Part shown: in pieces, positions 2,491 through 42,116 of the stretch | How positions within the stretch are numbered: the first letter of the stretch is position 1 | Layout of the letters: every line of letters starts with the position of its first letter | NCBI RefSeq assembly: GCF_003050965.1 | Contig: NZ_QAOU01000002.1 | Coordinates: 62,001-126,000 of the forward strand | DNA from: Nitrosospira sp. Nsp2 | GTDB lineage: Bacteria > Pseudomonadota > Gammaproteobacteria > Burkholderiales > Nitrosomonadaceae | DNA: 64,000 nucleotides | Reading direction: 5' to 3' | Program-made: the position numbers and the translations under genes | The notes under the pieces: generated by a model | Databases searched by the model: none | What the model saw: only the letters and a program-made list of their open reading frames with translations | Told to the model about the DNA's origin: nothing

Positions 2491-3510
2491 TCAGGCAGTT
2501 TCCATCGCGCGGCTGTATATGCCTTCGCGAGCCAGGCCATTCAGCTGGCAACGCTTGGAGAAGGCACGCTGCGCAGCGGCAACGTTTTCGTCCCGTCCCC
2601 GCCAGGTGGAGAGAACCGGCTCCTGCAGCGCGCGGCCATAGGAGAAACTGAGCTGCCATGGGTGTTCCCCCATCGCGTTCATGGCGTTGAGATGGTCGGT
2701 CGCATCCTCGGGGGTCTGGCCGCCCGACAGGAAGACAATGCCAGTCACCGCTGCCGGGACGTAGCGCCGCATGCAGCGCACTGTGGCCTCTGCAACCTCG
2801 GGAACGCTGGCCTGCTGCGGGCACTTCTTCCCTGGAAGCACCATGTTCGGCTTGAGCAGCATGCCTTCGAAGAGGATTCCGTGAGCATCAAGTTCGGCGA
2901 AGACGCATTCAAGCACTTGCGAGGTGACCGCTTCGCATCGCTCGATGCCATGGGCGCCGTCCATGAGCACTTCGGGTTCGACGATCGGCACCAGGTCGAT
3001 TTCCTGGCACAGGGCTGCATAACGCGCCAGGGCATGGGCATTGGCGTGGATGGCGCAGGCGGACGGTACGTCACGTTCGTCGATGTCGATGACCGCCCGC
3101 CATTTGGCGAACCTCGCCCCGAGCTGCTTATACTCGGCAAGGCGGTCGCGCAGGCCATCCAGTCCTTCGGTCACTTTGTTGCCGGGTTGCAATGCGAGCG
3201 GCTTCGCGCCTTTATCCACCTTGATCCCGGGCAGGATGCCCCGGTTCCAGAGAAGTTTCGGGAAGGGCGTGCCATCGCTGGCGCTCTGTCGTAGCGTTTC
3301 GTCATAAAGTATGACGCCGCTGATATAACGTTCGATGCCTTCGGTGGTGAAAAGTATTTCGCGATACCGCCGGCGGGTTTCTTCGGTCGATTCCACCCCG
3401 ATCGGTTCGAAGCGCTTCTTGATGGTCGGACCGCTTTCATCCGCCGCCAGAATCCCTTTCGGCGGCGCGACGATTTGTTCAGCCGTTGACCTGAGTTCAT
3501 GGATATTCAT
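2491..3510 (-). CDS. fba: Class I fructose-bisphosphate aldolase
   Basis: The 339-residue protein begins MNIHELRSTAEQIVAPPKG, followed by the ILAADES segment that is diagnostic of class I aldolases. Further signatures are the LPGIKVDKG segment, the WRAVIDI strand, VPIVEPEVL, the GMLLKPNMVLPG lysine region expected to form the Schiff base, and a C-terminal GIVFLSGGQ phosphate-binding loop. It cleaves fructose 1,6-bisphosphate to two triose phosphates in the cytoplasm; in an autotroph it would also serve gluconeogenesis and the Calvin cycle. The ATG at 3510 is preceded by a strong AGGAGG site. The open frame extends to 3714 but that extension is not aldolase-like. Confidence 0.95.
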   Translation of the reverse strand: MNIHELRSTAEQIVAPPKGILAADESGPTIKKRFEPIGVESTEETRRRYREILFTTEGIERYISGVILYDETLRQSASDGTPFPKLLWNRGILPGIKVDKGAKPLALQPGNKVTEGLDGLRDRLAEYKQLGARFAKWRAVIDIDERDVPSACAIHANAHALARYAALCQEIDLVPIVEPEVLMDGAHGIERCEAVTSQVLECVFAELDAHGILFEGMLLKPNMVLPGKKCPQQASVPEVAEATVRCMRRYVPAAVTGIVFLSGGQTPEDATDHLNAMNAMGEHPWQLSFSYGRALQEPVLSTWRGRDENVAAAQRAFSKRCQLNGLAREGIYSRAMETA

Positions 3511-31641: not shown

Positions 31642-32865
31642 CTACCTCACGCTAAAGGCGTCCGCGCTAATCTTCTTTCGCCGCGCAATGAATCCGACCA
31701 GCGCCAAGCCTGCAAGAAAGAGCGCATAAACCTCCGGTTCTGGGACGATTCCGATTGCGATGACCTGTCCCATATTATTGATGCCAGCGGCTGAGGATAA
31801 AACCACTCCACCAGGCAGATCAACTAGCGAATTGAGGTCCATCATGCCTGCCCCGTTAGGGCCCGTGATGAATGCATGGGAAATCGGCCGCAGCTCGCAG
31901 GCGAAGCAAGTGGCCCCGATGGAGGACGTCCCCACCACCTGCCCGGCGTCGTTGATGCCGGAAGCATAGCTGTAATCATAATAGCTGCCAGGACCGCCCA
32001 AAGTGCCGAGGTCTCTCATGCTCTCTCCGGCGGGTCCGGTGATGAAAGCATGGCTAGGCTGGTCAGAAAAAACAGAACCGCCCGCGGAACCCACGACCTG
32101 CCCTGCGTCATTGATGCCAGAAGCGCTCGCATCACCACCCAAAGTGTCAAGCTCTCTCATGCCCATTCCGTTGGGGCCTGTCATGAAAGCATGGACGCTG
32201 AAGGCTCCCGTGTTTCCATAATAAAATCCCACCGCCTGCCCCGCATCGTTGATGCCACGAGCCTCGTTGTAAGAGCCCGCCACAATACCAAGATCCCTCA
32301 TACCCATCCCATTGGGGCTTGTGATAAAAGCATGTTGGTTATAACCACCTTGATCAGTCAGACTCATCGACGAACCGACCACCTGCCCCGTGTCGTTGAT
32401 GCCGAACGCATGGCTGGAAATACTACCACCCAAAGTGCCAAGGTCTCTCATGCCCATCCCATCGGGGCCGGTGATGAAAGCATGGTAGGCGCCTCCTGAA
32501 GCCATGCCTCCACCCAGGTAAGAATAACCCACGACCTGGCCGGCGTCGTTAATGCCAAAAGCATCGCTGCTAGTCCCACCTAAGGTGCCAAGGTCTCTCA
32601 TGCCGATCCCATCGGGGCCGGTGATGAAAGCATGGGTGCCTCCAGCCGTATCAGACGAACCCACCACCTGCCCGCCGTCATTGACGCCGATAGCATAGCT
32701 GGAAAGACCACCCAAGGTGCCAATATCAGTTACGGTCTTGCTGTTGAGGTCGACCAGGTATGAATGTCTTGCTTGTGCGGAGGCGCTGGTGGCGAAACCC
32801 AGACCAGCAGAAAATGCGGCAGCGAGGATAAAGCCACGGACTTTGAAGGCACGGATGATTTTCAT
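31642..32865 (-). CDS. HAF-repeat PEP-CTERM secreted protein
   Basis: The 407-residue protein has a signal peptide ending at about residue 31 (TSASAQ). Seven units follow: the first reads HSYLVDLNSKTVTDIGTLGG and six are of the HAFITGPDGMGMRDLGTLGG type, each with a GINDAGQVVG motif. The tail has DLNSLVDLPGGVV, GINNMGQVIA, then VPEPEVYALFLAGLALVGF and ARRKK. One inter-unit loop carries two extra cysteines (ATCFACELRP), unusual among the paralogues. The leader contains a TTTAAAGCACG element and a TTGACAGCTTGGCAG block shared with other HAF genes, then AGAAGGATTCATC before the ATG. Confidence 0.93.
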   Translation of the reverse strand: MKIIRAFKVRGFILAAAFSAGLGFATSASAQARHSYLVDLNSKTVTDIGTLGGLSSYAIGVNDGGQVVGSSDTAGGTHAFITGPDGIGMRDLGTLGGTSSDAFGINDAGQVVGYSYLGGGMASGGAYHAFITGPDGMGMRDLGTLGGSISSHAFGINDTGQVVGSSMSLTDQGGYNQHAFITSPNGMGMRDLGIVAGSYNEARGINDAGQAVGFYYGNTGAFSVHAFMTGPNGMGMRELDTLGGDASASGINDAGQVVGSAGGSVFSDQPSHAFITGPAGESMRDLGTLGGPGSYYDYSYASGINDAGQVVGTSSIGATCFACELRPISHAFITGPNGAGMMDLNSLVDLPGGVVLSSAAGINNMGQVIAIGIVPEPEVYALFLAGLALVGFIARRKKISADAFSVR

Positions 32866-32981
32866 GATGAATCCTTCTCAATTTTCTCGATGAAAGGACG
32901 GGACTGCCAAGCTGTCAAAAAGCAATGCAGCGGCTTAGCGTGCTTTAAAGCGCGAATCGTGTCTTTACCTCAACTACAGGC

Positions 32982-34142
32982 CTACCCCAGGCGAAAAGCT
33001 TCCCCACCCATCTTCTTTCGCCGCGCGACAAACCCGACAAGGGCTAGGCCTGCAAGAAAGAGCGCATAAACTTCCGGCTCAGGGATAACTCCAATCGCGA
33101 TGACCTGCCCGGCGTTATTGATGTCGTAGGCCGAGAATAGAATCGCCCCCTTAGGCAGATGAATCAGGGAATTGAGGTCTATCATGCCTGTGCCGTTGCT
33201 GCCGGTAATGAAAGCATGTTGTTGATAAGGGAGGCCGTTTTCCCTAGAAACATAACCCACCACCTGCCCGGCGTCGTTGATATCCAAAGCAGAGGAGACA
33301 TATGGGCCAGCACCCCCAAAACTACCAAGGTCTCTCATACCCATCCCGTCGGGGCCGGTGATGAAAGCATGGTGAGAGCCGTCAGCCGTGTAAGAATAAC
33401 CCACCACCTGCCCGGTCTCATTGATGCCCACAGCCTCACCAGTGCCAAGATCCCTCATACCCGTCCCATCAGGGCCGGTTATGAAAGCATGTTGAGCGAC
33501 TTCAGGTATGGTGGACTGACCCACCACCTGCCCGGTGTTGTTGATGCCAAAAGGCACACTGTAAGAAGTACCGCTCAAAGTGCCAAGGTCTCTCATGCCC
33601 ATCCCATCGGGGCCGGTGATGAAAGCATGTCGAGCGCCGTCAGCCGTGTAAGAAGTCCCCACCACCTGCCCGACGTCGTTGATGCCGTTAGCAATACTGC
33701 TGCCAGTACCGTCCAAAGTGCCAAGGTCCCTCATGCCCATCCCGTTGGGGCCGGTGATGAAAGCATGGGTGCGACCTCCAGCGGTGCTAGAAGCCCCCAC
33801 CACCTGCCCGGCATCGTTGATGCCAGTAGCAGCGACGTAATCACCGCCCAAAGTGCCAAGTTCTCTCATGCCAACCCCATCGGGGCCGGTGATGAAAGCA
33901 TGTCGAGTACCGTCGTCCGCGACAAATCCGCCCACCACCTGTCCGGCGTCATTGATGGCACTGGCCCCCCTGGAGTTGGGGGCGTCGCCCAGAGCACCAA
34001 ACTCGGTAGCCGTCTTGCTGTTGAGGTCGATGAGGTATGCATGTTGTACTTGTGCTAAGGCACTAGTGCCGAAGCCCACACCAGCAGAAAATACTGCTGC
34101 GAGGATAAAGCCACGGACTTTGAAGCCAGGTGTAATTTTCAT
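32982..34142 (-). CDS. HAF-repeat PEP-CTERM secreted protein
   Basis: The 386-residue paralogue has a signal peptide (MKITPGFKVRGFILAAVFSAG) ending near ALAQ. It has seven alternating HAF-type and GINDAGQVVG-type units and a PEP-CTERM tail (IPEPEVYALFLAGLALVGFVARRKK). Tail and signal peptide are nearly identical to the neighbouring copies while the internal units vary. Its upstream region is an inverted copy of the region upstream of the gene at 36353. It is exported and expected to be exosortase-processed; function is unknown. Confidence 0.93.
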   Translation of the reverse strand: MKITPGFKVRGFILAAVFSAGVGFGTSALAQVQHAYLIDLNSKTATEFGALGDAPNSRGASAINDAGQVVGGFVADDGTRHAFITGPDGVGMRELGTLGGDYVAATGINDAGQVVGASSTAGGRTHAFITGPNGMGMRDLGTLDGTGSSIANGINDVGQVVGTSYTADGARHAFITGPDGMGMRDLGTLSGTSYSVPFGINNTGQVVGQSTIPEVAQHAFITGPDGTGMRDLGTGEAVGINETGQVVGYSYTADGSHHAFITGPDGMGMRDLGSFGGAGPYVSSALDINDAGQVVGYVSRENGLPYQQHAFITGSNGTGMIDLNSLIHLPKGAILFSAYDINNAGQVIAIGVIPEPEVYALFLAGLALVGFVARRKKMGGEAFRLG

Positions 34143-34384
34143 GATGGTTCCTCTCCAGTTTTTTAAACAAAGATGGGGCTACCATGCTGTCGAAACCCAG
34201 TACTCCTACTTTAAAGATAGATAAAGGATTGGAATTAACTAGGTGGACGAAATCGAAAGGCCCCTGGAAGGCAACAGCAAAGGTCTTTAGGAAGTTTCTG
34301 AGGGAAAGGGCAATCTTCCTCGTTTAAGGCCCCAGTGGCCTTAAACGCGCTGCCCGTTTCTAGGCAAGGTTGTGGGAAGCAGGG
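34143..34384 (-). repeat. Left arm of a roughly 245-bp inverted repeat (HAF leader region)
   Basis: Read on the minus strand, this stretch matches 36107-36352 on the plus strand almost throughout. Shared segments include GCTTCCCACAACCTTGCC, GAGGAAGATTGCCC, GCTGTTGCCTTCCAGGGG, the ATCCTTTATCTATCTTTAAAG block (34199-34230) and TTTCGACAGC. The similarity continues into the signal-peptide codons of the genes at 34142 and 36353. The arms face outward, each serving as the leader of one HAF gene. Confidence 0.85.
34321..34347. other. Hairpin within the inverted-repeat arm
   Basis: CGTTTAAGGCC at 34321-34331 pairs perfectly with 34337-34347 around the loop CCAGT. The equivalent stem in the right arm (about 36144-36168) is degenerate. 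Confidence 0.65.
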
Positions 34385-34432
34385 GCATCCCGCTACCGCA
34401 TTCTGTAAGCTATTTGACCAGTACCCGGTTAC

Positions 34433-34638
34433 CCGGCTAAAAGCCTCCCCACTCATCTTCTTTCGCCGCGCGAAGAAACAAGGACCAGGCCGCAAGAAAG
34501 AGCGCAGAGATATCCGGCTTCGGGACGATTGGCGATGACTTGACTTGAGTTATTGACGCCGGGAGCTTGCTTGAGAACCAGTTCGCCGGGCAGATCACTA
34601 ACCGGATTGAGGCCCATCACGGCCTTGATAATTTTCAG
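34433..34638 (-). pseudogene. Internally deleted relic of a HAF/PEP-CTERM gene
   Basis: On the minus strand, CTGAAAATTATCAAGGCC at 34638 resembles the ATGAAAATCATC start of the HAF genes with the ATG changed to CTG. It is joined directly to a C-terminal block (MGLNPVSDLPGELVL, GVNNSSQVIAN) matching the family's DLNSLVDLPGG and GINNMGQVIA. The PEP-CTERM tail can be read only by changing frame (PEAG, then SALFL-like and ARRKKMSGEAF). The signal peptide and all seven units are gone. This is what recombination between repeats would leave behind. Confidence 0.75.
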
Positions 34639-34640
34639 TC

Positions 34641-34669
34641 TCTTATCTATCTTTAGAGCAAGATTATTG
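34641..34669 (+). promoter_or_regulatory. Conserved HAF leader block
   Basis: TCTTATCTATCTTTAGAGCAAGATTATTG lies 52-80 bases before the ATG at 34721. It matches the block before the genes at 34142 and 36353. A GAGGATTCATC ribosome region follows. It is probably a shared promoter or regulator site; no sigma-54 pattern is evident. Confidence 0.5.
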
Positions 34670-34720
34670 TTTTTTACGTATGGCTGTGCATACTTTTGTT
34701 GAAAAAAAAGAGGATTCATC

Positions 34721-35869
34721 ATGAAAAATGCCCACAACTTTAAAATCCCCAGCCTTATCCTCGCGGCAGCATTTTTTGTTGGTCTGGGTTTCGGCACCAG
34801 TGCCTCTGCCCGACTTTCATATCTCGTCGACCTCAACAGCAAGACGGTATCCTACCTTGGCACCTTGGGCGGTAGTTTCACTGAGGCGTACGGCGTCAAC
34901 GACGCAGGGCAGGTGGTGGGTTGGTCTTACTCGGCTGACGCTCAGCATGCTTTTATCACCGGTCCCGATGGCCTAGGCATGAGAGATCTTGGCACTTTGG
35001 GGGTCGGTGTTGTCAGCCACGCTTATGGCATCAACGACACTGGGCAGGCGGTGGGTTTTTCTTCCACGGCTTACGGTGAGCATGCTTTCATCACCGGCCC
35101 CGATGGGATGGGCATGAGGGACCTTGGGACTTTGGGCGGTACTTCCAGCTGGGCTTTCGGCGTCAACGACGCCGGGCAGGTCACAGGTTGGTCTGAGAGG
35201 GCCGGAGGCGCTAGACATGCTTTCATCACCGGCCCGGATGGGACGGGCATGAAAGACCTTGGCACTTTGGGCGGGGCTATCAGCATTGCTTCTGGCATCA
35301 ACGAAGCGGGGCAGGTGGTGGGTTATTCCGACACGGCTGGAGGCTCTCGCCATGCTTTCATCACCGGCCCCAACGGGACGGGCATGAAAGACCTTGGCAC
35401 TTTGGGTGGGACTATCAGCATTGCTTTTGACATCAACGATGCCGGGCAGGTCATAGGTTGGTCTAGCACGGCTGGAGACGCGAGCCATTATGCTTTCATC
35501 ACCGGCCCCGATGGAATGGGTATGAGAGATCTTGGCACTTTGGGCGGTGCTGGCACCGATAATTACAGCGAGGCTCTTGGCATCAACAGCGCCGGACAGG
35601 TGGTGGGTTATTCTTACACGGCCGGAGGTGATTCGCATGCTTTCATTACCGCCCCCGATGGCGCAGGCATGTCGGATCTTAATTCGGTGGTCCATCTGCC
35701 CCCGGGAGTGATTCTAGAGCGAGCCACCAGCATCAATAACGCGGGACAGGTCATCGCCTTCGCCATCCCGGAGCCGGAAATCTCTGCGCTTTTTCTTGCG
35801 GGCCTGGCACTGATCGGATTCACTGCGCGGCGTAAGAAGACGAGTGCGATGGCCTTGAACCTAGGGTAG
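34721..35869 (+). CDS. HAF-repeat PEP-CTERM secreted protein
   Basis: The 382-residue paralogue has a signal peptide (MKNAHNFKIPSLILAAAFF) ending near ASARLS. It has seven units with HAFITGPDG and GINDAGQVVG-type motifs, a DLNSVVHLPPGV block and the tail IPEPEISALFLAGLALIGF followed by ARRKK. It lies between the outward-facing inverted-repeat arms and next to the deleted relic. The DNA repeats (a GTGGGTT-containing unit of about 150 bases) are similar enough to allow unequal recombination within the gene. Confidence 0.93.
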   Translation: MKNAHNFKIPSLILAAAFFVGLGFGTSASARLSYLVDLNSKTVSYLGTLGGSFTEAYGVNDAGQVVGWSYSADAQHAFITGPDGLGMRDLGTLGVGVVSHAYGINDTGQAVGFSSTAYGEHAFITGPDGMGMRDLGTLGGTSSWAFGVNDAGQVTGWSERAGGARHAFITGPDGTGMKDLGTLGGAISIASGINEAGQVVGYSDTAGGSRHAFITGPNGTGMKDLGTLGGTISIAFDINDAGQVIGWSSTAGDASHYAFITGPDGMGMRDLGTLGGAGTDNYSEALGINSAGQVVGYSYTAGGDSHAFITAPDGAGMSDLNSVVHLPPGVILERATSINNAGQVIAFAIPEPEISALFLAGLALIGFTARRKKTSAMALNLG

Positions 35870-36106
35870 CCCGGTACTGGTCAAATACCTTCGGGTCAAA
35901 TAACTTCGAACACACTGTAGCGGCAACTGTTGTTTAGCCTCGCGTATCTGAGCAGGTTCGGTCAGGTCGGTCCGACGCTCCTTAGTCATCGCCACTTTTG
36001 GCAAAAATCGAGTGTTTTCGGTTTCGGTAGCGTCAAGGCCAGGCGCTGCAGGCTACTTTTCGTCAGCCTTGTCTGCCTTAAGCGCTAAATTCCCTTGGCG
36101 CAAATA
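35870..36106. other. Intergenic region, duplicated in diverged form after 37468
   Basis: No gene is seen. The stretch of about 200 bases after the stop resembles 37490-37680 after the next HAF gene (shared words include TTTGGCAAAA, TTTCGGT and CAGCGCTAAAT). This points to duplication of whole gene-plus-spacer units. Confidence 0.55.
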
Positions 36107-36352
36107 CCCTGCTTCCCACAACCTTGCCGAGAACCAGGCGGCGCGTTTAAAGCCGCCGGAGCGTTAAATGAGGAAGATTGCCCTTTCCCTCAGGAACCCG
36201 CTAAATGCCTTTGCTGTTGCCTTCCAGGGGCATCTCGATTTCGTCCACCTTGTTAATGCCAATCCTTTATCTATCTTTAAAGCAAGAGTATTGCGTTTCG
36301 ACAGCCTGGCAGTTCTATCCTGTTGTTGAAGAAAGACTGAAGAGGATTCATC
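36107..36352 (+). repeat. Right arm of the roughly 245-bp inverted repeat (HAF leader region)
   Basis: This is the reverse-complement partner of 34143-34384. It contains the AATCCTTTATCTATCTTTAAAG block at 36261-36282 and TTTCGACAGCCTGGCAG at 36296-36312, then AGAGGATTCATC before the ATG at 36353. The two arms enclose about 1.7 kb holding the relic and one complete HAF gene. Confidence 0.85.
36259..36312 (+). promoter_or_regulatory. Conserved HAF leader block
   Basis: The same block occurs before the gene at 34142 (minus strand, about 34184-34232) and, less well kept, at 34641 and before the gene at 32865. It is a palindromic CTTTAAAG core followed by a GACAGC-TGGCAG element some 15 bases further on. 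Its constant distance from the ATG (about 45-90 bases) suggests a promoter or activator site. Confidence 0.55.
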
Positions 36353-37468
36353 ATGAAAATTACCCCTGGCCTCAAAGTCCATGGCTTTATCCTGGCTGCA
36401 GTATTTCTCACTGGTTTTGGTTTCGGCACCAGTGCCTCCGCCCAGTATTATCGTTCATACCTCATCGACCTCAACAGCAAGACGGCAACCGATATTGGCA
36501 GCTTGAGCGGTGGTCTTACTGAGGCTCATGGCATCAACGACGCCGGGCAGGTGGTGGGTTGGTCTCGGACGGCCGAAGGCTCTCACCACGCTTTTATCAC
36601 CGGCCCCAACGGGGTGGGTCTAAGAGACCTTGGCACGCTGCGCGGTCCTCTCAGCCAGGCTCATGGCATCAACGACGCCGGTCAGGTTGCCGGTTATTCT
36701 CTGACGACTGGAGGCGACTACCATGCTTTCATCACCGGCCCTAATGGGATGGGCATGCGAGACCTTGGCACTTTGGGCGGTACGGGCTCCATTGACACCA
36801 GCTCTGCTAACGGCCTCAACGCCGCCGGACAGGTGGTTGGTTATTCTTGGACGACTGGAGGCGCTTACCATGCTTTCATCACCGGCGCTAACGGGATGGG
36901 CATGAGGGACCTTGGCGCGGTCGGTGCTAATGACATCAACAACGCCGGGCAGGTGGTGGGTCAATCTGGGAGCCATGCTTCCCTTACCGGCCCCAACGGG
37001 ATGGGTATGCGCGACCTTGGCACGTTGGGTGGTGCTTTCAGCCAGGCTTTAGGCATCAACGACACCGGGCAGGTGGTGGGTGAGTCTTACCTCGCTGGAG
37101 ATACTCTTTCGCATGCATTCATTACCGGCCCCGATGGGATGGGCATGAAAGATCTTGGCACTTTAGGTGGTTTCAACAGCGAGGCTTTCGGCATCAACAA
37201 CGTCGGACAGGTGGTGGGTTTGGCAGAGACAGCTGAAGGCGTGGCGCATGCTTTCATAACCGGCCCCGGTGGCAGAGGGATGATGGACCTCAATTCGCCG
37301 GTTGATGTGCCTGGCGGGGTGATTCTAGCCCAAGCTACCGACATCAACGACGCGGGGCAGGTCATCGCCCTCGCCATCCCGGAGCCGGAAATCTCCGCGC
37401 TCTTTCTTGCGGGCCTGGTCCTGATCGGATTCACTTCGCGGCGAAAGAAGATGAGTGTGAGGCCTTAG
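36353..37468 (+). CDS. HAF-repeat PEP-CTERM secreted protein
   Basis: The 371-residue paralogue has a signal peptide (MKITPGLKVHGFILAAVF) ending near ASAQ. It has seven units, one of them shortened and with a changed motif (HASLTGPNG), and the tail IPEPEISALFLAGLVLIGF followed by SRRKK. Its tail DNA is nearly identical to that of the gene at 34721. An adjacent unit lacks the TLGG turn (DLGAVGANDINNAGQ). It is secreted, with exosortase processing expected; no function is known. Confidence 0.93.
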   Translation: MKITPGLKVHGFILAAVFLTGFGFGTSASAQYYRSYLIDLNSKTATDIGSLSGGLTEAHGINDAGQVVGWSRTAEGSHHAFITGPNGVGLRDLGTLRGPLSQAHGINDAGQVAGYSLTTGGDYHAFITGPNGMGMRDLGTLGGTGSIDTSSANGLNAAGQVVGYSWTTGGAYHAFITGANGMGMRDLGAVGANDINNAGQVVGQSGSHASLTGPNGMGMRDLGTLGGAFSQALGINDTGQVVGESYLAGDTLSHAFITGPDGMGMKDLGTLGGFNSEAFGINNVGQVVGLAETAEGVAHAFITGPGGRGMMDLNSPVDVPGGVILAQATDINDAGQVIALAIPEPEISALFLAGLVLIGFTSRRKKMSVRP

Positions 37469-37855
37469 CCTGGGGTAGCCCTTAACTAGTCAAACACTTT
37501 CACTTGCTGTAACGGTAGTTGCTTGGTCAGCCAATCGCCTTGGCTCGCGTAATAGCCTGTAACACCTGCCGTTCATCGGATCTTTGGCAAAATCCAGCAT
37601 CTTTGCTTTCGGTCAAGGCTAAGTACTGGGAAGGGTCTTGCCAGCTTTGATCCTGCCTTCTCAGCGCTAAATGTCGATGGGTGGGGCAACGTCTCGGCCT
37701 AGGCTTTATTAACCGATTTCCAATGCGACTCCTTGTTTTTAGGATGAACTGGTATACAAATAGATGGAGGTTGTGGGGTACTCGAACCGGGCAAATCGCA
37801 GAGCATGTGCTCACGGAAAGTCTGGACCACCCGAACAATCTAAGGGAGATATGAA
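37469..37855. other. Intergenic region before the cysteine-rich gene
   Basis: The first 200 bases are a diverged copy of the spacer at 35880-36090. The rest is unique and should hold the promoter of the small cysteine-rich gene, whose ribosome site is AAGGGAGAT at 37842-37850. Confidence 0.5.
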
Positions 37856-38209
37856 ATGAATACGATGAACATGCCAGGATTTACTGCAGAAAAATCTATT
37901 TACAGAACGAGTGATCATTATCGTGCGATAGCTAATACTCCCAATGACGTGAGAAGCAGTCGCGAGGTCTTGCCTCAATTACCTATAGGTTTCTGCCAAG
38001 CGAATTGTGACCGCATTCAGGATAGTTTTTTAAGAAGCGTTTGTGTACTTCGTTGCTTGGACCAAACAGGTGGAGGCGGAGGAGGTGATGGCGGCGGTCC
38101 ATTTTGTCGTCCGAGTTGCGGGCGGTGTTTAGCTGACCCAGACTCATTAACAGGCCGATCTAGAACATGCATTAGACGCAATTGCGACGATTACGTGCGC
38201 GCCTGCTAG
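37856..38209 (+). CDS. Small cysteine-rich protein with MPGFTAE leader-like N-terminus
   Basis: The 117-residue product is not a known enzyme. It opens MNTMNMPGFTAEKSIY; from memory, short bacterial proteins with an MPGFTAEASLY-type start recur in betaproteobacteria, and this N-terminus looks like a conserved recognition or leader segment. The C-terminal half has ten cysteines in CxxxC-like spacings, split by a GGGGGGDGGG linker; there is no signal peptide of the Sec type. A good AAGGGAGAT site precedes the ATG. It may be a modified or exported peptide precursor; no modification enzyme or transporter gene lies beside it. The stop is followed at once by a truncated HAF gene in another frame. 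Confidence 0.75.
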   Translation: MNTMNMPGFTAEKSIYRTSDHYRAIANTPNDVRSSREVLPQLPIGFCQANCDRIQDSFLRSVCVLRCLDQTGGGGGGDGGGPFCRPSCGRCLADPDSLTGRSRTCIRRNCDDYVRAC

Positions 38210-38603
38210 TCGCCAAGAATGTAGACCCGTCTCGGCACAGCAGGAGTTCCATTCCTATATGGTAGGTTCCAACGGCAAGGGACTGACCGAGCTCGGGACA
38301 CTGGGTGGATTTTCCAGTTTCGCCCATGGCATCAACGACGCCGGGCAGGTGGTGGGGCAGTCCAACACGGCCGCAGGTGCTGACCACACCTTTATCACCG
38401 GCCCCAATGGCGCGGGCATGACCGACTTAAACTCGTTGGTGAGTGTGCCGGGCGGAGCTGTTCTAAGCATGGCGACGGGGATCAATAATCATGGGCAAGT
38501 CGCCGCCATTAGCGTAATAATCCCCGAACCCGAAACCTATGCCATGCTGTTGGCCGGTCTGGGTCTGCTGGGCTTTATCGCGCGCCACCGCAAGTCTGCT
38601 TGA
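38210..38603 (+). pseudogene. Truncated HAF/PEP-CTERM gene lacking its signal peptide
   Basis: Reading from just after the previous stop, the frame encodes SAQQEFHSYMVGSNGKGLTELGTLGG. The first part corresponds to the signal-peptidase site and unit 1 of complete paralogues. A GINDAGQVVG motif, one HTFITGPNG unit, a DLNSLVSVPGG block and a full PEP-CTERM tail (IPEPETYAMLLAGLGLLGF) follow. Only units 1 and 7 remain, and the signal peptide is missing. The first in-frame ATG is at 38259. If expressed, the product could not be exported by Sec, so it is treated as a remnant. Confidence 0.75.
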
Positions 38604-38747
38604 GCAGCGTTTGATGCCGAGCCACAAAGGGGAAGATGCGCCCTCGTTGCTTATTGTTACCGATGCCTGAGGGCCGCTTCCTGCTGGGTGAGATGCTGAA
38701 CCGTGCAATCCGGTCAGCCGACGTCTTCTTGACGTTATTGGTTGACG

Positions 38748-39212
38748 TTATTGATGCTGGACCGGTTTGATCCCTTTATTCCCTCCCACATCCAGCCTTA
38801 TCCTCCAGGCCGCGGGCGTGACTGCAAGACTCGGTTCTTTAAAGACGGCCAGCAGGCGTGCGGGTTGAGTCTTGCTGTTATTTGCGCTGACGCCATGATG
38901 ATCGCCTGGTAGTTCCGCGAAGTTCTCGCCGGCGCGGTAAACCTTTTCCGGACCGTCATTGACTTTGCTACGAATTTCCCCCTCCAGGACCGTTGCGTAG
39001 ATGAAAGCCGATTTTGGGTGGGTATGTGCTGGCGATGAGCCACCCGGCTGATATTCGACGAGCACGCCTTTCATGCTCTTGCCGGGCACATTCGGAAGAA
39101 CGTGATCAAAGACGACCGTTACCTTGGACTTATCAGCAGGCAAGTTATCGGCAGATGTTGCACTCACCGAGAGAACTGCGAGGGCAACTCCGCAGAGAAA
39201 TCTAGTAAACAT
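38748..39212 (-). CDS. Secreted cupin-domain protein
   Basis: The 154-residue protein has a signal peptide (MFTRFLCGVALAVLSVSATSA) and one small cupin barrel: SPAHTHPKSAFIYATVLEGEI (metal-site histidines and glutamate) and ENFAELPGDHHGVSANN (second motif). It is probably periplasmic and metal-binding. Start choice is supported by GAAGGAGAACACG before the ATG. It lies 79 bases downstream of the P460 gene on the same strand and may be co-transcribed with it. The substrate is unknown. Confidence 0.88.
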   Translation of the reverse strand: MFTRFLCGVALAVLSVSATSADNLPADKSKVTVVFDHVLPNVPGKSMKGVLVEYQPGGSSPAHTHPKSAFIYATVLEGEIRSKVNDGPEKVYRAGENFAELPGDHHGVSANNSKTQPARLLAVFKEPSLAVTPAAWRIRLDVGGNKGIKPVQHQ

Positions 39213-39291: not shown

Positions 39292-39852
39292 TTATTGTGG
39301 TTCGAGGGTGGGGTAGCCTTCGATATATACCCAGCCGGTTTGTTTTGCCGGCACATGGCAGGGAAGACAGCTTTCCAGGTAACCTTTGGATGTATTTATT
39401 TTCCGGTTTTCGGCTTCAAACAGCGCCCATCCCCAACCTTCCCCCCAGTTGGCATTGCCTTTGAAACGACCTTTTGTATCCTTGATCATCACAAACCATA
39501 CGGATATATCGCCTGCCCATACCGCCGGTCCAGTGGTCAACGCACGTGAGTTCATCTTGCGGACTTCCTTTATTAAAACTGCCCCATCGGGAAACTGGCC
39601 GGTTTCAAGGAATGCCTTGACTACCTCCGGCTGTGTGTAAACATCGTGGAAACCGTAGCCCGGCGCCTTGGCATCATTAACCGCCCATGAGCCCAAATGA
39701 CTCCAATGGTGTCTGTGGTTTGCGGGCAGACTAATTTCCCCGGTTTTATTGACATAAGTTGCATAGGTTTTAGTCGCAAGATCACTTGCCTGGGATTGAC
39801 AGGTAAACAGAACCCCGGTCAAGCCCAGGAATACAGCTAAAAAATAGTTCAT
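39292..39852 (-). CDS. Cytochrome P460 family protein
   Basis: The 186-residue protein has a signal peptide (to about residue 23) and one c-type haem site near the C-terminus, CLPCH, followed by VPAKQTGWVY. The upstream body (WAVNDAKAPGYGFHDVYTQPEVVKAF, FPDGAVLIKEVRK, WFVMIKDTKGRF, GWGWALFEA) fits the P460 fold. In Nitrosomonas, cytochrome P460 oxidises hydroxylamine and has a lysine-haem crosslink. Candidate lysines are in the KDTKGRFKGN region, but I cannot assign the crosslink from sequence alone. It acts in the periplasm. Confidence 0.85.
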   Translation of the reverse strand: MNYFLAVFLGLTGVLFTCQSQASDLATKTYATYVNKTGEISLPANHRHHWSHLGSWAVNDAKAPGYGFHDVYTQPEVVKAFLETGQFPDGAVLIKEVRKMNSRALTTGPAVWAGDISVWFVMIKDTKGRFKGNANWGEGWGWALFEAENRKINTSKGYLESCLPCHVPAKQTGWVYIEGYPTLEPQ

Positions 39853-40353: not shown

Positions 40354-40806
40354 TCACGGCTTCACAGGATAACGGCTGGAAGTGGCAATGCGATTCCAGG
40401 CATTGATGACTATCGAAAGCCACTCGACAGCCGATATTTCATCCTTTGACAGATTGGCTGCTGCTTGCTCATAGATGGCTTCTGGTACTTGCCCGTCAGA
40501 GATCAGTGTTATTGCTTCTACCAGTGCCAATGATGAGCGTTCCTTTTCGGTGAAATACCCACTTTCCCGCCAGGCTGGCAGGACACTTATGCGATCGGTT
40601 GACTCGCCACTGGAAAGGGCATCGCGAGTATGCATCCTCACACAGTATGCGCACTGGTTGAGCTGGGATGCACGAAGGCGCAATAGATTTGCAAAGCCAG
40701 CCTGAATGTCTGCGGAAGCAACGGCCTCAGCCGACAGCTTCTCAAGGCCCATGACTGCCTGGTAAAGCGCTGGAGCGGATTTACCAAGATTGATTCTTTC
40801 TGACAT
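40354..40806 (-). CDS. Carboxymuconolactone decarboxylase/AhpD-like family protein
   Basis: The 150-residue protein has the AhpD-like core: LLRLRASQLNQCAYCVRMHTRDAL with a CxxC and following histidine, FTEKERSSLALVEAITLI, and a final VINAWNRIA helix. The CxxC-x-x-x-H motif suggests peroxidase or disulphide reductase activity rather than decarboxylation. The start follows AAGGAGATTTC. It is the first gene of what appears to be a decayed unit with the NmrA remnant downstream. Confidence 0.92.
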   Translation of the reverse strand: MSERINLGKSAPALYQAVMGLEKLSAEAVASADIQAGFANLLRLRASQLNQCAYCVRMHTRDALSSGESTDRISVLPAWRESGYFTEKERSSLALVEAITLISDGQVPEAIYEQAAANLSKDEISAVEWLSIVINAWNRIATSSRYPVKP

Positions 40807-41204: not shown

Positions 41205-41960
41205 CTAAGTTATGACCGCTGGTCCAAACCATAGCCAATAAAGCAACCAGCCAAAAATTACCAAGATCACGAAGTACTGAGAAAAATTTAGGATATACAT
41301 AAATGCGACTTTTGTCTTTAACCACGCTTTTACATGCAAACTAAACTTATAATTTTCCGGCATATCGAGTTGAGCCCGCATGTAATCGGCATTAAAATCA
41401 TTAATAGCTGCTGCTTCATATAGTTTAAGAATCTCATGGTATTCATCTCTAAAACCCGCGTATTGCTCAGGAGTTCCAGATTCCAAAAAGGGATACATTT
41501 TTTGCTTCAACTCGCCTAAACGAGACGCACAGGAATACATTCTTTCAGATAGGCTTGAAAAACCATTTTTGTCAATTAGCAGGGAATACACAAGCACTGT
41601 TATTGAAGAAAAGACTTGAATTAAAGCGAGATGCCTCGAATGAATATTGACTCCTAAGCTATATGCCTGCATAAGCGCTATAAGAATTAATACTAACGAT
41701 ATAAAGACAATCGTTGCTGTTGACAGTCTTGTGTGTAATTTCAAACGACGAGATGAGTGAAAGCGCATCTTGGATGTGGCGTCAACTTTCTTATAAAGAT
41801 TTAGTAAATCAGCTTCTTTCTTCAATTTAAGTCCAATATACTTGATTCCAATGGCCACCCCGCCGTTCACTTCGATGGAGCTTAAACGGCGCGTATCAAG
41901 CGAGTTTATCGGCGTGGGAGGCTCGACGCCCACAAGGCGAAAGCTCGGCGGTCGTCTCAT
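41205..41960 (-). CDS. SLATT-like 2TM/3TM membrane effector protein
   Basis: The core matches the SLATT effector pattern: LLNLYKKVDATSKMRFHSSRRLKLHTRLST, a TM pair (STATIVFISLVLILIALMQAY; ALIQVFSSITVLVYSLLI) and a conserved cytosolic helix SERMYSCASRLGELKQKMY. A third C-terminal span follows (YILNFSQYFVILVIFGWLLYW). SLATT proteins are predicted membrane-disrupting effectors of nucleotide-signalling and related defence systems. The frame extends to a TTG at 42038, but that part lies in an interspersed repeat. The ATG at 41960 is the first plausible start, and a later GTG or TTG is possible because the SLATT core begins at about 41805. No partner enzyme is adjacent. The gene looks AT-richer than the core genes. 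Confidence 0.65.
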   Translation of the reverse strand: MRRPPSFRLVGVEPPTPINSLDTRRLSSIEVNGGVAIGIKYIGLKLKKEADLLNLYKKVDATSKMRFHSSRRLKLHTRLSTATIVFISLVLILIALMQAYSLGVNIHSRHLALIQVFSSITVLVYSLLIDKNGFSSLSERMYSCASRLGELKQKMYPFLESGTPEQYAGFRDEYHEILKLYEAAAINDFNADYMRAQLDMPENYKFSLHVKAWLKTKVAFMYILNFSQYFVILVIFGWLLYWLWFGPAVIT

Positions 41961-41970
41961 AGGTACTGTG

Positions 41971-42030
41971 ATTTTAACTAACTCAGCAGTATTTACCAGT
42001 GTGACGAGGTACACCAGATAATCAGTGTGG
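41971..42030 (-). repeat. Interspersed 60-bp repeat, copy A
   Basis: This is the first of three same-orientation copies (others at 47082 and 55211), about 80-90 percent identical by eye. The core contains ACTCAGCAGTATTTACCAG and a GTGTAC/GTACAC hairpin. Here similarity with copy C continues about 30 bases further (TTTCAAAAAA, GGGGAAATG). It overlaps the open 5' extension of the SLATT-like gene. The minus strand carries a TAAAAT word, a possible -10 element, kept in all copies. Confidence 0.85.
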
Positions 42031-42116
42031 GATTTCAAAAAATGCGGGGGGAAATGCAGCCTACATAAAGAGTGAAAAAGTTTCTTCTTCCCAAATTAGA
42101 GAAGAAACATCACAAC

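Follow-up and report, generated by a model that had tools for sequence, protein, structure and literature searches.

Cyanobactins are treated as products of Cyanobacteria in PMC4603692, where YcaO is also described as missing from some known cyanobactin clusters. The cleavage sites of PatA and PatG are given as G(L/V)E(A/P)S and AYDG in PMC10885120. As of 2014, a terminal domain of PatA and PatG was present in all characterised cyanobactin pathways and had no assigned role (PMC4259220). The structure of the PatG DUF has been published and reveals a novel fold, and the same paper reports no detected binding to the linear substrates tested (PMC4259220, Mann et al.). The NHLP and Nif11 precursor families have constant leaders and hypervariable cores, with NHLP-Burk precursors occurring in tandem, according to PMC4603692.

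The window analysed here is a stretch of 64,000 nucleotides from the genome of the ammonia-oxidising soil bacterium Nitrosospira sp. Nsp2 (G000), corresponding to C2:62001-126000. At positions 37856-38209 on its forward strand lies a gene that we interpret as an orphan precursor-peptide gene on the basis of its open reading frame, its ortholog and its match to a leader profile (E 1.2e-17). A ribosome-binding site read from the sequence, aagggaga (37842-37849, forward strand), ends 6 nt 5' of the ATG. The product is 117 amino acids long, opens with MNTMNMPGFTAEKSIYRTS and contains 10 cysteines, at residues 47, 51, 63, 67, 84, 88, 91, 105, 110 and 117. Its conserved leader, residues 1-41 (37856-37978, forward strand), was delimited in alignment A1 and has VLPQ at its end, with PQ as the putative boundary. 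Behind it, the variable Cys-rich core (37979-38206, forward strand) opens with a CX3C-X11-CX3C pattern (residues 47-67), which a Gly-rich linker (residues 72-81; 38069-38098, forward strand) separates from a second Cys cluster (residues 84-117). The ORF therefore bears out the small Cys-rich protein with ten cysteines and a glycine linker that an earlier sequence-only reading had described. A Gly-rich stretch of varying length occupies the same place in the relatives of alignment A2. Searches of Pfam and NCBIfam up to E 10 and of PHROGs up to E 0.1 yielded nothing for the protein, and its predicted structure, made from an 8-row alignment, is too poor for use (pLDDT 38.8).

That reading had also held that no processing gene is adjacent. 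This is true of the 64-kb window, in which the S8, PatG and small partner proteins found nothing better than E 0.083. It is misleading for the genome as a whole, where the contig that carries the window gene (C2:99856) also has an S8 subtilase gene and a PatG_D/PatG_C gene, at a distance of some 245 kb (PatG_D at C2:345623). The stand-alone PatG_D/PatG_C protein matches PF18047 (E 2.2e-36) and PF18065 (E 2.2e-30), both above cut-off. The candidate processing genes encode this protein and a PatA-type S8 protease, where a peptidase-transporter or radical-SAM partner had been proposed. G000 carries five leader ORFs, the window copy and four others; two of these lie directly downstream of the S8 and PatG_D/PatG_C genes, and S8 and PatG genes were not seen in the 3-kb loci around the leader ORFs at C3:57954 and C2:187725. 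The remote ORF at C3:57954 (L067) encodes 157 amino acids with 24 cysteines and resembles a 157-aa, 24-Cys ORF in a Methylococcales array (L005).

Nitrosospira sp. Nsp14 has an ortholog of the window protein with 94% identity. The two genes differ by 9 synonymous and 7 non-synonymous codon changes (dN 0.028, dS 0.147; dN/dS ~0.19), and 10 of 10 cysteines are retained. The low dN relative to dS, together with the retained cysteines, indicates selection on the window protein. This observation bears on whether the window copy could be a dead relic, a functionless leader cassette scattered from the PatG locus. Its surroundings would suit such an origin, as it sits among repeat-rich PEP-CTERM genes, and G105, a genome of the same species, lacks this stretch at the equivalent position and carries four leaders where G000 has five. 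However, the ORF is intact in both G000 and Nsp14, and the dN/dS ratio and the ten conserved cysteines speak for a maintained gene; we therefore consider a relic improbable.

Several other features of the window surround the gene. Four long ORFs with GINDAGQVVG-type repeats, two per strand, span 31642-37468 and 38259-38603, and a PEP-CTERM motif was observed in both ORFs tested (34721-35866 and 36353-37465), as well as in a fragment that closely follows the precursor gene. A cytochrome P460 family protein (39292-39852, reverse strand; PF16694, E 3.8e-24) is encoded beside a cupin (38748-39212) and a CMD-family protein (40354-40806). A SLATT_5 two-helix membrane effector domain is encoded at 41205-42038 (reverse strand; PF18160, E 2.4e-22), near a 228-aa protein without a Pfam match and a 687-aa protein that appears ATPase-like by eye; this region is possibly a defence island.

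The leader belongs to a family that shares the pattern MxxxMPGFTAExSxY and finishes in a VxPQ-like sequence, in most cases with a Tyr around residue 22. In alignment A1 (30 rows), three positions are invariant (P7, F9, A11) and three others are conserved at 90% or more (E12, S14, P40). At E<=1e-5, the A1 leader profile matched 62 places, which belong to 17 of the 125 Nitrosomonadaceae genomes sampled, confirming the recurring MPGFTAE start that had been noticed in the sequence; three more family genomes have weak leader matches only (E 0.02 to 0.1). Calling the motif betaproteobacterial was too narrow, as it also occurs in Methylococcales, Chromatiales, rhizobia and Streptomyces. Searches of viral contigs with the leader profile found no relative. 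When the whole window protein was used as the query in the same family, all 17 matches at E<=1e-3 started at residues 1-5, and 11 of the 17 stopped by residue 57. Because all of these matches begin at the N-terminus and most of them end early, the front is the shared part of the protein even without selection on the leader.

We gathered proteins with the MPGFTAE start and compared both ends among 43 representatives less than 80% identical to one another (61 distinct ORFs were reduced to 45, from which 2 with short profile matches were removed; 4 ORFs without a regular motif were dropped from the leader/core identity comparison). Mean pairwise identity was 0.373 for leaders, 0.271 for cores and 0.241 for shuffled cores, and the leader was more similar than the core in 782 of 903 pairs, in a set collected by leader profile, which favours leader over core identity. 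Cysteine accounts for 0.8% of leader and 13.3% of core residues, and grouping at the similarity used sorted the cores into 27 groups, of which 18 are singletons. The front is thus constant and the Cys-rich rear variable, as had been suggested, and the family has the constant leader and variable core by which RiPP precursors are recognised. This comparison of both ends, together with the search for processing genes, supports the precursor reading: the proposed shape of a modified- or secreted-peptide precursor holds in its leader/core anatomy, and the candidate processing genes are of another type than proposed.

The cores also show a bias toward paired cysteines. Counted after the leader-end motif, the number of core cysteines is even in 40 of 43 representatives (binomial p 1.5e-9, ignoring kinship), with a boundary defined by a pattern with a fixed fallback that was written after the sequences were seen; with the profile end as boundary, it is even in 31 of 43. 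A CX3C-X(8-14)-CX3C pattern is present in 8 of the 43 cores, including that of the window protein, and two or fewer cysteines in 7. The even-Cys bias points to pairing of the cysteines.

We observed a strong association between leaders and PatG_D across genomes. PatG_D is present in 16 of the 125 sampled Nitrosomonadaceae genomes, all 16 of which have leaders, whereas a leader (E<=1e-5) occurs in only one of the 109 family genomes without PatG_D (G095; Fisher p 2.7e-19 over the 125 genomes, a figure that relatedness inflates). In each of the 16, one to four leaders lie within 1.9 kb of PatG_D; overall, 35 of the 62 leaders are placed within this distance and 27 elsewhere. There is one PatG_D per genome versus up to seven leaders at E<=1e-5 (G098), and such an excess of precursors, many of them remote, implies action in trans, if the remote ones are processed. 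Among 369 genomes sampled from the class, 5 had leaders (E<=1e-4) and 5 had PatG_D; G000, G145, G293 and G401 had both. Beyond the Nitrosomonadaceae, the module is found in a second family of this class. The leaders of G152 are on a contig apparently identical to L006, which begins inside the PatG_C end. In G156, S8 and PatG_D are fused in a protein of 649 aa, and no leader match was found at E<=1e-4. A phylum sample of 378 genomes contained leaders in G000 only and PatG_D in G000 and G803; in the latter, PatG_D lies in a 670-aa frame, again with no leader match at E<=1e-4. Since the genomes with a fused or long-ORF PatG_D have no leader, the tie is one between the leader and a stand-alone PatG_D/C. 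The leader family thus co-occurs with, and is physically linked to, the S8 and PatG_D/C genes. The PatG profile found no relative among viral contigs.

Behind the fused S8-PatG gene of G156 (L073) lie two small Cys-containing ORFs with an MNLPIQ start (2527-2682 and 2983-3141), which perhaps belong to another leader family, distinct from the present one, that serves enzymes of this type. A tie of the system to ammonia or methane oxidation as such was considered and rejected: AMO subunit A was found in G000 and G152 and not in G156 or G803, and it was not found in G145, G293 and G401 despite their leaders and PatG_D.

Relatives of the window protein itself occur beside PatG genes. The nearest one outside the ortholog pair (65% over residues 4-68) is encoded in a Methylococcales MAG (L005), where it starts 15 bases (GTG) or 24 bases (ATG) past the end of the PatG_C frame and is the first of a five-ORF leader array. 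Another, in L012 of G109, a genome of the window's own genus, has the same first Cys pattern and 33% overall identity to the window protein, and lies about 1 kb behind PatG_D. These two placements indicate that the window copy belongs to a type also found beside the candidate processing genes. Further similar proteins, in L008, L009 and L014, are encoded away from the PatG loci of their genomes. The predicted structure of the L005 PatG_C fragment, made from a single sequence, is too poor (pLDDT 44.5).

In all 20 chromosomal loci retrieved, and in 3 of 4 from plasmids, the S8 protease either is encoded upstream of PatG on the same strand or forms a fusion with it. Its best PDB match is 4h6w, an "N-terminal cyanobactin protease" (E 8.8e-29), with which its Asp, His and Ser motifs align. 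The next matches are 3zxx, 4h6v and 3zxy, which we take to be PatA (PDB name: subtilisin-like protein). The match to the PatG protease 4aks is weaker (E 1.5e-13) and near those of ordinary subtilisins, and NCBIfam TIGR03895 is matched far below cut-off. S8 also matches the PADLOC subtilase and IetS models (E 1.6e-16 and 1.4e-9), as would be expected if it degraded or activated proteins as regulatory substrates in stress or defence proteolysis, with the leader acting as a degron or activation tag. However, the PatG-type, small and window proteins have no PADLOC match at E<=0.001, the best solved relatives of S8 are cyanobactin proteases, and the strong diversification of cores in tandem arrays suits products and not a degron. 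We consider this alternative very unlikely.

The PatG_D/C proteins are 64-89% identical to that of G000 (14 rows, some partial), and a PDB sequence search with the PatG-type protein gave a best E of 0.042. Many loci encode, between S8 and PatG, a small PCGGC protein with the pattern LPGF..DEEIGLGD..GIKPCGGC..RA..LN (for example, L102 6601-6822 and L103 4087-4299). It is present in 16 of 25 genomes searched, comprising 13 of the 16 PatG_D family members plus G145, G293 and G401, and absent from G000, G105 and G111, all of which have PatG_D, and from all six genus members without PatG_D (0/6); the gene looks broken in G098 and G099. No Pfam or NCBIfam match was found for this protein, and phrog_32048, of unknown function, is matched at E 1.4e-6 by one of two copies tested and at 0.015 by the other. 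It shares a PGF...DE motif with the leaders (LPGFITDEEIGLG versus leader MPGFTAEASLY). PatG_D/C turned up in five of 72,556 plasmid records, four of which, and no others, also have the small PCGGC protein. Leader ORFs follow in the plasmids of Mesorhizobium sp. B2-1-1, Sinorhizobium mexicanum and Streptomyces sp. NBC_01568; these ORFs are missing from the records' gene tables, which are incomplete. The S. xanthophaeus plasmid has a candidate leader, RIPGFRSD..., recognised by eye, and no adjacent S8, and the PatG_D/C match of the Photobacterium plasmid has 21% identity.

In a comparison of 20 loci (mostly the upstream side, in stretches no longer than 20 kb and with a minimum ORF length of 70 aa; PatG was called as an ORF in 19 of 20), S8 and PatG_D/C were the only proteins common to all, and no exporter common to all compared loci was found. 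YcaO (PF02624) was found in 0 of 20 genomes, with 5 of 14 control genomes positive. Two genes some kb upstream of S8/PatG were considered as further members of the core module, namely a tyrosinase (PF00264; 7 of 20 loci; L036 1737-2636) and a 245-aa protein without a Pfam match (9 of 20 loci; L036 447-1184). Because both are confined to the window's genus, we place them outside the module. HlyD-like and ABC-like genes, named by eye, lie 11-17 kb upstream in 4 of 20 loci only and were likewise rejected.

So small a common gene set, with YcaO in none of the 20 genomes, would also be expected if the family consisted of disulfide-rich secreted or periplasmic proteins whose front is an export or sorting signal trimmed by S8/PatG, with no further modification. 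The even-Cys bias and the twin CX3C pattern in 8 of 43 cores are in line with such proteolytic maturation, which would not be a RiPP pathway in the strict sense. On the other hand, the front is unlike a signal peptide by eye, and the identity among the PatG-type proteins exceeds what a mere trimming aid would appear to need. We regard trimming alone as plausible without favouring it; it overlaps with the explanation that we prefer, so the confidences placed in the two are not exclusive.

The explanation that we prefer, and consider likely, is that the window gene is an orphan precursor of a YcaO-free, cyanobactin-protease-like pathway, cleaved in trans and carrying paired cysteines. In this pathway, the leader (the first 41 residues) would be recognised, probably through its PGFTAE part, by proteins for which each genome has a single set of genes. 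These are a PatA-type subtilase and a PatG_D/PatG_C protein that stands alone, joined in most genomes, but not in G000, by the small PCGGC protein. The subtilase would remove the leader as PatA does, probably at the VxPQ end, freeing the Cys-rich core, whose cysteines may then be paired by disulfides or another pairwise link. Because PatG_D/C is so constant and so tightly tied to the leaders, it probably acts on, or presents, all these precursors.

The arrangement of some loci suggests how such precursors could multiply. Before some leader ORFs (L005 1942 and 2366; L006 1111; L102 8632), the tail of the PatG gene, with a tatgac-type end and a stop, is repeated and is followed by a ribosome-binding site and leader start. 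The start block of the window gene is identical in 33 of 38 bases to that of the first leader ORF behind PatG_C in L006, compared with at most 23 of 38 for the 1133 other ATGs of the window. The PatG-gene tail pattern was not found before the window copy, in window positions 36001-39000. From these sequence patterns, new precursors seem to arise by copying of the front block and attachment of a new core. A more specific reading, that the leader-like motif of the small protein is a shared docking tag and that new cores are gained via a copied PatG-tail/RBS/leader-start cassette, is offered as tentative and somewhat doubtful.

Compared with the described systems, the pathway most resembles that of the cyanobactins: its S8 is nearest to cyanobactin N-terminal proteases among solved structures, its PatG_D/PatG_C domains are those of the C-terminal DUF of PatA/PatG, here on a separate protein, and variable cores follow a constant leader. 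However, cyanobactin pathways have two multidomain proteases, whereas here one split S8 accompanies a stand-alone DUF protein. The second, PatG-type macrocyclising S8 of cyanobactins was not encountered, as the 20 chromosomal loci and 3 of the 4 from plasmids each gave a single S8 match, and neither was their YcaO heterocyclase (0 of 20 genomes). The PatE sites G(L/V)E(A/P)S and AYDG occur in 0 of 67 precursor ORFs, in which the leader instead has PGFTAE...PQ. Unlike those of cyanobactins, the cores are long and mostly Cys-rich, and many precursors lie far from the enzymes. With no second protease in the loci, no YcaO in the genomes and no cyanobactin sites in the 67 ORFs, we do not file the system as a cyanobactin, although cyanobactins are its nearest known counterpart. 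Constant leaders and hypervariable cores are shared with NHLP/Nif11, but Pfam and NCBIfam gave no match for the window protein and the linked enzymes are different. Prochlorosin-type systems combine a single processing locus with many distant precursors. The system described here resembles them in its single candidate processing locus and distant precursors, and differs in that only S8 and PatG_D/C are common to all loci compared.

We found no published description of the leader family, or of a PatG-type pathway in Nitrosospira, other proteobacteria or Actinobacteria, in the open-licence literature, and this stripped-down pathway appears to be undescribed so far. It points to a family of peptides, most of them rich in Cys, that spans ammonia oxidisers, rhizobia, Streptomyces and MAGs of Methylococcales and Chromatiales, and genome mining via YcaO or the TIGR03895 cut-off probably misses such peptides. 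The system also offers the PatG-type domain alone, with a single protease and a set of candidate natural substrates at its side, which makes the role of this domain open to a simple co-expression test.
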